A stretch of 64,000 bases of DNA from an uncultured Anaerobiospirillum sp. GTDB taxonomy: Bacteria; Pseudomonadota; Gammaproteobacteria; Enterobacterales; Succinivibrionaceae. A program made the position numbers and the translations under genes. The notes below the pieces were generated by a model that was not told the origin of the DNA, made no database searches, and saw only the letters and a program-made list of their open reading frames with translations. Where the stretch lies: positions 52,770 to 116,769 of the forward strand of contig CALXOW010000002.1 in assembly GCA_944390115.1 (NCBI GenBank), read 5' to 3'. Shown here one piece after another: positions 31,792-36,148 of this stretch; within the stretch, counting starts at the first letter, position 1, and every line of letters begins with the position of its first letter.

Positions 31792-32496
31792 ATGCCAGAG
31801 AGCTCGCGATCAGATGCAGTGACTAATGAAATCGTTAGTTACATGCGCCAGATGATCAGCACTGGCAAGTGGCCAGTGGGCTCCAAGATCCCATCTGAGA
31901 ACCAACTGCGCGCGCGCCTTAATGTCTCGCGCACTTCCTTGCGTTCGGCCATTATGCAGCTGGCAGCCCTGAACGTACTCAAGGCCAAGCAAGGCATTGG
32001 CACCTTTGTCATTGCGCCCTTACATGACGAAGCGATCTTTGAGGAGACCGGCAAGAGCCTGGGTGCCAAGAAGGAAATCGTCCAGATTTTGGAATTTCTG
32101 AAGATTGTGGCCCCGACCGCGATCTTCATTGAGATGCAGAAGTTCAACAAGTGCTTTAAGGGCTTAGAGCGCCAGCTCATGACGTTCTTAGAGCAGCAAA
32201 AGGACTTAGCTACGCGCGACCAAGCGGAGTTCTTGCGCTCCTGCTTTGAGTTCCACATCGTGATCTTCAATGCCATCGTCAACGAGTTCGTTAAGAACTC
32301 GGTGATTGAGGCGATCACGCGCCTGCAAAACGCGGTGGCGGTGCTGCACCCGAATGTTTCCTGCCAGGTCATCCTGACCTTACACAGCAAGCTCATTAAG
32401 GCCATTGTCAAAGAGGATCCTAAGCTGGCGCGCCGCTGCCTCAAAAAGCTCTTTGACTACCTCACCGCCCACGATTATCTGCGCTCCTTGAGCTAA
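31792..32496 (+). CDS. GntR-family regulator, FadR/FCD subfamily
   Basis: A 234-residue transcriptional regulator. The N-terminal winged helix-turn-helix (about residues 8-75) has the signature KIPSENQLRARLNVSRTSLRSAI and KQGIGTFV. The C-terminal part is a helical FCD-type ligand domain (about 95-230). FCD regulators usually sense small organic acids; the ligand here is not apparent and no metabolic operon is attached. GGAGG is six bases before the ATG. It converges with the restriction-methylation gene 24 bases away. Confidence 0.85.
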   Translation: MPESSRSDAVTNEIVSYMRQMISTGKWPVGSKIPSENQLRARLNVSRTSLRSAIMQLAALNVLKAKQGIGTFVIAPLHDEAIFEETGKSLGAKKEIVQILEFLKIVAPTAIFIEMQKFNKCFKGLERQLMTFLEQQKDLATRDQAEFLRSCFEFHIVIFNAIVNEFVKNSVIEAITRLQNAVAVLHPNVSCQVILTLHSKLIKAIVKEDPKLARRCLKKLFDYLTAHDYLRSLS

Positions 32497-32519: not shown

Positions 32520-33479
32520 TTAAGAAGCCGTAGCTTTAGTCGCCGTCGCTTTAGCTGAAGCCGCTTTAGCGGTGCGCCCTTTCTTCTGCTTCTTCTTGGG
32601 GGCTGCTGGCGGCAAGCTTGCCACCTTGGCCCGGTGCAGGGCGCATAGGCGCTCAATCACCTCAGCATCAGTGGCCTCAACGCTTAGGCCATAGGCTTGC
32701 AGTACTAGGCGCTCACAGGCTTCATGTGCGGCTTTGAGGTCATCAGGCATGCTCTTGGGGTCGTAGAGCGCGCCCAGACTCTGCCCGGCATGCGCCGCGC
32801 GCACAGCAAGAATGGCTTGTCCTGCTTGTTCTAACGCGTGCACCAGCTCGGGCTTTGGGTTCTCGGGCCACGGAAAGTTGCTATACACCGGATTTAAGGT
32901 GTAGCGGCAACCTTCGCCTAAAGTATTGCCCACCATCTTGATCCAGAGCATGTTGAGGTGCGAACCCAAGATGCTGAAGTGGTACAAGGTAGCACCTGGA
33001 ACGATGACTACCAAGTTGCTAGCAAAGATGCTCGGGTCAATGAACATGAGCGGCAGATAATGGCGATTGCCAGAGAAAGTCTGCGGAATAATGAGCGAAT
33101 CGGTATTAGGGAAGCACTCAACGTGAAAGCGGGTTGGTTTATCAGCTTTTTTGCGTGTATCCTCGCTAGTGCTGTTCAAGCGGTACTCACGGACGCGCTC
33201 GATACGCTCGCGGCATAAAGGCAAGTGGATTAGCTCAGTATCAGAGGTGTCGCCCAACCACAGACAATAGCGTGGGGTACTGGTAATAAGCTCATCGGAG
33301 CCATACCACGGATGAAAGTAGGGCGCAGCTTGCGGCTCGCGCTGGAGAAAATTCTCTTTTTGCTTGAGCGTGAACAGGTAATTGCCGTCATCAATCGGCT
33401 TGTTACCGCTGTAGGCGCTAGGGGCGGGAAAGAGCGGAGTTTTTTGCTTGAGTGGGAAAAAATCGGCGCTTGGCTGCAA
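32520..33479 (-). CDS. C-terminal part of MmeI-like restriction-methylation enzyme (out of frame with the N-terminal part)
   Basis: This frame carries the target-recognition and C-terminal region of the enzyme whose start is at 35380. Homology-like sequence runs continuously in this frame from just after the G10 tract (VECKLYTRNDCLHVPH) to the stop at 32520. NPVYSNFPWPENPKPE is a typical MmeI-family C-terminal signature. A lysine/alanine-rich tail ends the protein. The only candidate start for this part alone is a TTG at 33479 without a ribosome site, so it is probably translated only when the tract is in the ON length, as a joined protein of about 953 residues. Confidence 0.8.
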   Translation of the reverse strand: MQPSADFFPLKQKTPLFPAPSAYSGNKPIDDGNYLFTLKQKENFLQREPQAAPYFHPWYGSDELITSTPRYCLWLGDTSDTELIHLPLCRERIERVREYRLNSTSEDTRKKADKPTRFHVECFPNTDSLIIPQTFSGNRHYLPLMFIDPSIFASNLVVIVPGATLYHFSILGSHLNMLWIKMVGNTLGEGCRYTLNPVYSNFPWPENPKPELVHALEQAGQAILAVRAAHAGQSLGALYDPKSMPDDLKAAHEACERLVLQAYGLSVEATDAEVIERLCALHRAKVASLPPAAPKKKQKKGRTAKAASAKATATKATAS

Positions 33480-35380
33480 ATAGGCGTTGATGTGAGGGAC
33501 GTGCAGGCAGTCGTTTCGCGTGTATAATTTACACTCGACCCCCCCCCCATAGATGACTTATTATTTATATTAGAAAAGCCAACAATAATGCAAATAACCT
33601 GCGCACTCTGCTTGACCTCGTTGACCCAAGGGAAGGATTGCCAGGCAAAGTTGATGGTAATACCCTGTTCGTTAAGTGGCGCCCAGAGGTTACGCACCGA
33701 AGTTCCCTTGCAGATCGAATCGGTGGCTACAAAGGCGGTCTTAATGCTCGGATACTGCGCCATGATGTCAGCGGCCTTCTTGAACCAGCAGCCCACATAA
33801 TCGATGTCACCGGCGCTCTGCCACATCGGGCCAAAGACCGCCAGCTGTTCTGCGGTTTGTTCTTTGGTGCGCTTCTTGGAGCCAATAAATGGCGGATTAC
33901 CCATGATGTAGCTGAGCTTTTCGTACGGTACCACTTGCGCCCAAGGCAGGGTCAGGGCGTTACCTTCCTTGATGTTGATATAGGCGGTGAGCGGGAAAAA
34001 TTCGAGCTCATGCTCGATGATCTCGCTAGTCTGCTCAATCATCTGACTTTCAGCAATCCACAGGGCGGTTTTGGCTACGGCGACGGCAAAGTCATTGATC
34101 TCGATGCCATAGAACTGGTCGATGCTCACCTTGATCGGGTCTAAGTCCTCGATGCCCAAGAAGGTCTTGCCGTGGTAGAGCTCGCGGATGACTTCGTTTT
34201 CTAAGCGGCGCAGGCTCAAGTAGGTCTCGGTGAGGAAATTGCCCGAGCCACAGGCTGGGTCAAGGAAGGTGAGGTGGGCGAGCTTTTCTTGGAAGCGCTC
34301 CAAGGCACGGCGTCTTGAGGCCACGGAGTCAAGCTGCCTAATCTTGCTAAACTCGGCTTTGAGATTATCCAGGAATAACGGGTCGATCACCTTGTGGATG
34401 TTCTCAACCGAGGTGTAGTGCATGCCCCCTTGGCGGCGCAGCTCGGGGTTTAAGGTGCTCTCAAAGACCGCACCGAAGATGGTCGGGCTGATCTCACGCC
34501 ACTTGAAGTTGGTGTCAGGGCCCTGGGGATTGCGCAGCAAATCCGCGATTTCTGCGGTGAACTGCGGGATAAGCGCGTCATCATCGGCAAAGAGGTCGCC
34601 GTTGACGTAAGGGAATGCTAGGAGATCCGGATTTTCGTAGGGGTCGCGCTCGTCCTTGGGGGTATTGAGCACGGTAAAGAGCCTCTTTAAGCCGTCGCGC
34701 ATCAGCTCTGGACTGAACTTACCTAAGTAGTCTTGAAAGGCGGTTTCACTCTGAAACAGCCCAGCGTCCTCAGCATAGAAGCAAAAGACCAAGCGCACGC
34801 ACAGCTTGTTGAGACTTTGCTGAGCCAAGGTGCTGTCCGGATCGTGGTACTGTGCGGCCAGGAGACGATAGAGCTTGGAGACTACGGTGCCAGCTTGCAC
34901 CGAGAGGTCCTCACGCTCCTTGGGGATAGTGCGGTCATCCTGGACCAAGAAGCTTAAGCGGTAGTACTCGTGCTCAAAGTCAGCAAGCGCCACCGTAGCG
35001 GTCGGACCCGTGCCTGCTTGGTTCATATCGTAGATGACAAACTGGTCGAAGTTACAGGTCACGATATAGCGCGCCCGCTTGTCATAACTTAAATCGGCGT
35101 TGTATCTCTTGGCTTGTTCATAAGCAGTGGTGAGGTCGATGCCACGGCTTTTTTGCTCGATTAAAACGTGGGTCGACTCGATATAGGCATCGATATAGCC
35201 ACTTTTAGCTTTGTCGGGCTTGGGCTCAAAGTCAATAAAGTCCAGCGGCCTTTCGATGCCAAAGACGCGCTGGAGCAGGTCAAGCCAAAAACTTTGATTC
35301 TGGCCCTTCTCGTAGTCCTTCCTTCTGAGCCAATCACGGGCAAAGTTTTTAGCGGCGATGCGTTGCTCGGTTGGGGTCAT
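33230..35380 (-). CDS. N-terminal part of MmeI-like type IIG/IIL restriction-methylation enzyme (frame-interrupted)
   Basis: Single-chain restriction-modification enzyme. The nuclease site is YIDAYIESTHVLIEQKS (D64, E75, K77, a PD-ExK pattern). The gamma-class N6-adenine methylase has FLDPACGSGNFL (motif I) and YIMGNPPFIGS (motif IV). The native frame runs to about residue 610, then meets a G10 tract (33539-33548). After that this frame reads about 100 unrelated residues to a stop at 33230, while the true continuation is in another frame ending at 32520. The current allele therefore lacks its target-recognition part. One added G or two lost G would restore the frame. Located in an accessory stretch. 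Confidence 0.85.
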   Translation of the reverse strand: MTPTEQRIAAKNFARDWLRRKDYEKGQNQSFWLDLLQRVFGIERPLDFIDFEPKPDKAKSGYIDAYIESTHVLIEQKSRGIDLTTAYEQAKRYNADLSYDKRARYIVTCNFDQFVIYDMNQAGTGPTATVALADFEHEYYRLSFLVQDDRTIPKEREDLSVQAGTVVSKLYRLLAAQYHDPDSTLAQQSLNKLCVRLVFCFYAEDAGLFQSETAFQDYLGKFSPELMRDGLKRLFTVLNTPKDERDPYENPDLLAFPYVNGDLFADDDALIPQFTAEIADLLRNPQGPDTNFKWREISPTIFGAVFESTLNPELRRQGGMHYTSVENIHKVIDPLFLDNLKAEFSKIRQLDSVASRRRALERFQEKLAHLTFLDPACGSGNFLTETYLSLRRLENEVIRELYHGKTFLGIEDLDPIKVSIDQFYGIEINDFAVAVAKTALWIAESQMIEQTSEIIEHELEFFPLTAYINIKEGNALTLPWAQVVPYEKLSYIMGNPPFIGSKKRTKEQTAEQLAVFGPMWQSAGDIDYVGCWFKKAADIMAQYPSIKTAFVATDSICKGTSVRNLWAPLNEQGITINFAWQSFPWVNEVKQSAQVICIIVGFSNINNKSSMGGGSSVNYTRETTACTSLTSTPICSQAPIFSHSSKKLRSFPPLAPTAVTSRLMTAITCSRSSKKRIFSSASRKLRPTFIRGMAPMSLLPVPHAIVCGWATPLILS
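33539..33548. repeat. G10 homopolymer (C10 on plus strand) inside the restriction-methylation gene
   Basis: Ten identical bases lie exactly at the point where the coding frame switches. Counting codons, a tract of 8 or 11 G would join both halves in frame; 10 G leaves the gene off. This is the classic arrangement of a slipped-strand phase switch. An assembly or sequencing error in the homopolymer is the alternative. Confidence 0.8.
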
Positions 35381-35434
35381 GCGCTCTGATCCTCAAATGA
35401 GAGCGCACAGCTCAAGCTGCTTGGTTAGGAGGGA

Positions 35435-36067
35435 TTAGGCTTGGTGGCTTTGGTCGACGCCCGCTAGCTGATCGACCGTGGCCCAGCACAGGCGCACAAA
35501 GTGCTCCATGAAGTACTTAACTTCGGGCATGCGTGCGCAATAGTCCTCAAGCACGTGGTCTAAGCGCTCTTTGACGTGAGAAAATTCTTGGTTCGAGAAT
35601 CGTAACTCATCGTTAGCTTTGATGTAAGCGGCCAAGGTGTCGGCGGCCTTGACGATCGCCTTTTGCTCCTCGTCGACTTGGTCTTGGATGATGAGAGGCG
35701 TAAAGTCTGCTTGCAGGCACTCAGGCAGCGTGGCCACGCACTCCTCTTCGGCGTTGTGCTCGATGAGCTTGTACTGGCGCGTAAACTCAGGATTTAAGTA
35801 CTTGGTGGCGGAGTTAAGGTCTTGGAGCTTGCTCTCTGAGACCTCGTGGTAGAGCGCCAGGACCGCGACGCGCTCGGCGTTGACGTTGCCGCCAAACAAG
35901 CGGTTTTTAATCACGGCGAGCATATGGGCGATGACCGCCGTTTGGTGGCTGTGCTCGGAGACATTCTCCTCGCGGAAGTTGTGCATCAGCGCCCAGCGCT
36001 TGATGAGCGACATGCGCACAATCCACGCCAAGAAGGTACTTTCTTCAGCTGGGGTTAAGTTAGTCAT
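35435..36067 (-). CDS. YfbR-like HD-domain 5'-deoxynucleotidase with HD changed to HE
   Basis: A 210-residue protein aligned by eye with E. coli YfbR, which dephosphorylates deoxyribonucleoside 5'-monophosphates. The metal-site residues H39 (NVSEHS), H74 and D143 (KAADTL), and active-site E78 and D83, match the YfbR positions. The second half of the HD pair is Glu (LYHEVSE, residue 75) where the family has Asp. GDLPTP of YfbR reads QDLNSA here. The enzyme may be altered in metal choice or activity. ATG 36067 follows GGAGGA; an in-frame start 13 codons upstream lacks a ribosome site. Confidence 0.82.
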   Translation of the reverse strand: MTNLTPAEESTFLAWIVRMSLIKRWALMHNFREENVSEHSHQTAVIAHMLAVIKNRLFGGNVNAERVAVLALYHEVSESKLQDLNSATKYLNPEFTRQYKLIEHNAEEECVATLPECLQADFTPLIIQDQVDEEQKAIVKAADTLAAYIKANDELRFSNQEFSHVKERLDHVLEDYCARMPEVKYFMEHFVRLCWATVDQLAGVDQSHQA

Positions 36068-36148
36068 GGGGTCCTCCGTTGTTTGAGTTTTACCCCATTG
36101 TGCCACGGCCTTACCCCCAGATGATGAAATTGGGCCTTCAGTGCCAAG

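Follow-up and report, generated by a model that had tools for sequence, protein, structure and literature searches.

Organisation of the locus

The window, as we call the whole 64 kb stretch of DNA that was analysed, covers 52770–116769 of contig C2 in the genome of an uncultured Anaerobiospirillum sp. (G000; 3.64 Mb in 123 contigs). An MmeI-like type IIG (IIL) restriction-modification (R-M) gene runs from 35380 to 32520 on its minus strand (Table 1). Five Pfam domains were found above the cut-off, in the order expected for MmeI: nuclease, helical spacer, methyltransferase, target recognition domain (TRD) and C-terminal domain. They are spread across two reading frames, and the frame break coincides with a tract of ten G at the joint between methyltransferase and TRD. 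Otherwise the gene is complete.

An earlier note on this DNA had read the gene as phase-variable, placing the change of frame exactly at the ten G, with nuclease and methylase before the tract, recognition and C-terminal regions after it, and a clean frame on each side. Family, tract, position and frame logic were all borne out, and the phase-variable reading is supported. The note's proposal that tracts of 8 or 11 G would yield one protein is consistent with the arithmetic of the two frames as read. In the assembled state there is no single continuous polypeptide; the whole product of the 5′ frame, including an out-of-register tail, is 716 aa long, and the 3′ frame has its first start codon, a TTG, at 33479, about 19 residues in.

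The best type IIG model in PADLOC (912 positions long) is matched by the two halves at positions 4–598 and 616–906, and the corresponding matches in the solved structure of MmeI (5hr4) are residues 9–588 and 612–917. The 5hr4 alignment of the 5′ half shows YIDAY...IEQK, which we take to be the nuclease D...ExK motif, as well as DPACGSGNF and GNPPF, presumably the methyltransferase motifs.

A candidate hairpin at 35381–35406, immediately ahead of the start codon, encloses the ribosome-binding region (z −1.76; equally good folds in 9 of 200 shuffles). This leader also occurs in the deletion scar of genome G006 described below; the leader in G009 differs.

Table 1. Features of the MmeI-like locus in the window, and R-M genes of the same genome that carry a G run of at least nine.
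Feature	Position	Strand	Remarks
5′ half: MmeI_N nuclease, MmeI_hel spacer, MmeI_Mtase methyltransferase	33551..35380	-	610 codons, stop-free
G10 tract (C10 on + strand), methyltransferase-TRD joint	33539..33548	-	frame breaks here
3′ half, other frame: MmeI_TRD, MmeI_C, terminal stop	32520..33536	-	domain matches
Out-of-register tail of 5′ frame, assembled state	33230..33538	-	stop at 33230
Upstream neighbour: YfbR-like 5′-deoxynucleotidase	35435..36106	-	also upstream of G009 orthologue
Downstream convergent neighbour: GntR/FCD regulator	31792..32496	+	same neighbour in G009
R-M gene with G run ≥9: MmeI-like gene	window	-	G10
R-M genes with G run ≥9: two N6_N4_Mtase genes	L131 6581-19155 (G000:C3)		G11 and G9
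R-M genes with G run ≥9: four type ISP genes or N-terminal parts	C4, C48, C78, C81 (L132, L137, L139, L140)		

The tract and the run lengths of the window

The G10 tract is the only G or C run longer than five in the window, which holds 37 runs of five, none of six to nine and one of ten. Extrapolating the observed decay of run lengths gives an expectation of 0.005 runs of ten or more in the window. A first-order model gave a run of at least ten in 14 of 200 simulations; it also predicts about 19 runs of six or more in the window, versus the one seen. Dinucleotide shuffles reached at least three G8 matches, as the window does, in 21 of 100 cases. These first-order controls are by themselves insufficient to exclude a chance run, which is ruled out by the run-length decay of the window together with the frame break at the run.

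An orthologue in a sister species and losses elsewhere

Relatives of the gene are encoded in all 11 genomes of the genus; a close full-length orthologue was found in G009 only (75% identity over residues 1–605; next best relatives 59–60%), flanked by the same two genes (Table 1). The earlier note had suggested counting tract lengths in related strains, and this sole full-length orthologue has a G9 tract at the aligned place, with its halves likewise in different frames but in a register unlike that of the window, and with both halves conserved.

Both halves are stop-free in both species. Comparison of G000 with G009 (NG86) gave dN/dS values of 0.10 over the 606 codons of the 5′ half and 0.17 over the 338 codons of the 3′ half, with dS near 1.8 and thus close to saturation; the value for each of the two neighbour genes was 0.08. 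Differences within the 3′ half are distributed 98/82/187 over the codon positions (p 4e-12). Coding capacity past the break is thus retained: dN/dS and codon bias indicate that the 3′ half, whose own frame is read only when the tract has another length, has been maintained as coding sequence. Judged by these substitution patterns, both halves are under purifying selection in both species, and hence the gene is not long dead.

Other sister lineages have lost the gene. G006, whose neighbour genes are the most similar (97% identity), has a large deletion inside the gene that leaves the leader and the first and last codons; the scar lies at the same locus (L196 about 2241–2520, G006:C79). In G005 only a shortened 5′ part is left (about residues 9–282, with an internal stop; L198, G005:C17, contig about 35600–36700). 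The two neighbour genes are 194–512 bases apart in G001, G003, G004, G007, G008 and G010, too close for the gene to lie between them, and are on separate contigs in G002. The scar, the shortened copy and the closed-up neighbours show a dispensable gene that has been lost at least twice. A frameshift shared by all relatives and accompanied by further decay, which the earlier note held would speak against a switch, is not what G009 displays; G006 and G005 display it in part.

These losses bear on the best surviving alternative to phase variation, a recently inactivated pseudogene whose frameshift is fixed and which is being lost, as happened in G005 and G006. The deletion scar and the shortened copy fit such a course, as does the fact that both species keeping the gene have it out of frame. 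However, both halves are open and are under purifying selection in both species, the tracts of G000 and G009 differ in length and register, and no other disabling change was seen in either copy. We therefore regard a pseudogene as improbable.

Methyltransferase-TRD joints among relatives

Joints were surveyed at 149 loci (80 from genome contigs, 29 from the genus, 16 from elsewhere in the family and 24 viral, with at least one record entered twice). They contain 143 methyltransferase-TRD pairs, and in 138 of these both halves share one frame at the joint. The five out-of-frame pairs are the window gene (G10), its G009 orthologue (G9) and three distant paralogues (40–41% identity; two in G001, one in G008) that carry a CCTG-type array. 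These arrays, of 15, 21 and 7 units, start 170–172 bases past the methyltransferase match and ahead of the TRD match, and the poly-G tracts start 2 and 18 bases past the methyltransferase match. The places of the two kinds of repeat are alike, not identical.

Some above-threshold repeat occurs somewhere in the gene in 15 of the 138 same-frame pairs, and four of these 15 have a shorter homopolymer no more than 200 bases from the joint (A8 in L176, A9 in L177, C8 and A8 in L261, A8 in L014). G or C runs of at least nine and tetranucleotide arrays are absent from the gene in all 138. The five MmeI-like genes with a repeat at the break are all out of frame; were a third of such genes in frame, the chance of this would be about 0.13.

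The 24 relative loci on viral contigs reach at best 53–60% identity over the matched segment, and no close orthologue was found on these contigs. On genome contigs the best 80 of 581 loci lie at 51–56% identity, and all 80 pairs are in one frame.

Two side observations concern the distant copies. The three genes broken by a CCTG array between methyltransferase and TRD are L281 1547–5844 (G001:C1), L283 1758–5822 (G008:C163) and L282 (G001:C148); L281 and L283 are each followed closely by another TRD stretch, perhaps a spare recognition cassette, whose MmeI_TRD and MmeI_C domains were confirmed in L281. In addition, two tandem MmeI-like genes (L272 1540–7025, G008:C30) both break frame inside the TRD without a repeat; they were counted as same-frame at the joint, the break lying further inside the TRD.

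G runs across the genome, the genus and the family

The genome G000 contains 14 G runs of at least nine, where an extrapolation of the decay in the window gives about 1.6. Seven of the 14 are in R-M genes of types IIG, ISP and III (Table 1), which would be very unlikely if the R-M share of the genome were 2–5%, a rough guess. The type ISP item on C81 is short and matches Mrr_cat_2 weakly. Other runs are at an acyltransferase-SGNH gene, a hexapeptide transferase and frames without assignment. At least one G run of nine was found in all 11 genomes of the genus and in 48 of 57 genomes of the family.

The type ISP genes of the genus gave 58 match rows, 30 of them with loci examined. A G or C tract lies upstream of the match in 10 of these 30, five being frame-blocked at the tract and five open; without a tract, 18 of 20 are open and the other two are at contig edges, where the frame is not judgeable.

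Several further observations were made on these runs. The poly-G and poly-C tracts of the type ISP genes (L132, L137, L139, L140 and other loci of the genus) are near the nuclease domain, some of the genes being open and some frame-blocked. The locus with the two N6_N4_Mtase genes is type III-like: several consecutive methyltransferase-related frames precede a single res gene. Runs at L133 7997–8006 (G000:C17) and at L136 3367–3374 and 4389–4397 (G000:C40) touch acyltransferase-SGNH, family 2 glycosyltransferase and hexapeptide transferase genes, which are candidate switched surface-modification genes. Finally, a 24-base sequence (up to three mismatches; L237–L247) occurs at 11 places in G000, nine of them at contig ends, and six of the copies stand 4–6 bases past a G run of 6–12, as if landing beside G runs. 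The idea of a portable tract cassette was dropped, since the 11 copies are confined to one of the 11 genomes of the genus and nine are at contig ends; the sequence probably marks one end of a mobile element present in multiple copies.

The genus-wide picture also bears on the view that the assembled tract is a sequencing or assembly error, the true tract being fixed and in frame. Homopolymers are error-prone, the 123-contig assembly gives a single consensus length, and the same bias could affect G009. Nevertheless, a long tract is present in two separately assembled species, the tract-bearing type ISP genes turn out both open and blocked, and if the true length were in frame, the gene would still contain a run long enough to slip. 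An error is thus a very unlikely explanation.

Discussion

Phase variation of this MmeI-like type IIG/IIL R-M gene by slipped-strand mispairing is very probably the right explanation. What the sequences show is a gene in two halves with a tract at their frame break, a homologous tract of other length in G009, purifying selection on both halves and comparable tracts in other R-M genes. Points that weigh against it are the losses in G006 and G005, the lack of an in-frame copy among the five genes with a repeat at the break, the repeat-free frame breaks in G008:C30 and the shorter homopolymers near the joint of four same-frame copies. In replication the G run would gain or lose a base by slipped-strand mispairing. 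A length joining the halves in one frame would give a single nuclease-methyltransferase-recognition protein, expected to methylate its own sites and to cut foreign DNA. At other lengths, including the assembled one, translation would stop soon after the methyltransferase; the predicted product has no recognition domain and hence should have no DNA specificity, so that marking and cutting would be lost together. That slippage takes place, that ON and OFF cells would coexist as a mixture, that activity would be lost in the OFF state and that gene expression may be affected is inferred. The epigenetic switch acting genome-wide that the earlier note envisaged may then be the consequence.

A scheme without a DNA switch would have either some full-length protein made at all times through slippage of transcription or of the ribosome at the G run, or the 3′ half produced on its own to serve as a recognition subunit. 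It could draw on the ability of transcription to slip at long G runs and on the second recognition-domain stretch just downstream in the distant G001 and G008 paralogues. Against it, no start codon occurs in the 3′ frame before the TTG about 19 residues in, and the differing registers of G000 and G009 fit a tract of changing length better than recoding at a fixed site; we give this scheme very little credence.

If phase variation holds, switchable R-M extends to a gut family of Gammaproteobacteria for which we found no reported phase variation: a literature search for the term with Anaerobiospirillum or Succinivibrionaceae returned no report, and the only match for Succinivibrio with phase-variable concerned fish pathogens. 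That poly-G tracts and CCTG arrays both break the frame at the MmeI-like joint suggests that a switch turning off marking along with cutting has been selected for repeatedly. With so many such genes, a single gut population would be able to vary in its methylation, its sensitivity to phages and its uptake of DNA. The chances seem to us evenly balanced that the genus possesses a multi-gene methylation switchboard, types IIG, ISP and III having each acquired slippable repeats (in the MmeI-like genes between catalytic and recognition parts, by poly-G and by CCTG arrays), such that one lineage then spreads over many combinations of methylation pattern and phage defence. For phase-variable type ISP genes as such we claim no novelty.

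Comparison with known systems

The earlier note had named Campylobacter and Helicobacter among the genera with phase-variable type IIG genes, of which Cj0031 (PMC4889913) and JHP1272 (PMC3936762) are examples. Cj0031 of C. jejuni NCTC11168 is ON at G9 and OFF at G10, its effects on the methylome and on phage were measured, and loss of marking and cutting together has been argued for its OFF state (PMC4889913). Like the window gene it is a single-chain nuclease-methyltransferase-recognition enzyme split into two frames by a poly-G tract within the coding sequence, with conserved domains on either side. Unlike it, Cj0031 has 1243 aa, M.TaqI/Eco57I-related domains and the tract at base 2573 of 3732, and its ON and OFF states were measured, whereas those of the window gene are predicted. 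MmeI itself (5hr4) has the same domain order as the window gene over nearly the whole length, but has a single open frame; the G10 tract lies in the part that aligns with about residues 589–611 of MmeI.

JHP1272 and HP1353-HP1354 of Helicobacter pylori are likewise homopolymer-switched type IIG genes with a TRD structure like that of the MmeI family (PMC3936762). In these a second repeat changes specificity by adding a C-terminal domain, whereas the window has no second G or C run longer than five. The phasomes of Campylobacter resemble G000 in having many poly-G/C tracts, with R-M genes among those switched and 9 and 10 the commonest lengths (PMC6321876); they belong to another class of bacteria and give prominence to surface-modification genes, whereas in G000 half of the long G runs are in R-M genes. 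The kind of switch is thus already known from C. jejuni Cj0031 and H. pylori JHP1272, and the window gene is very probably a further member.
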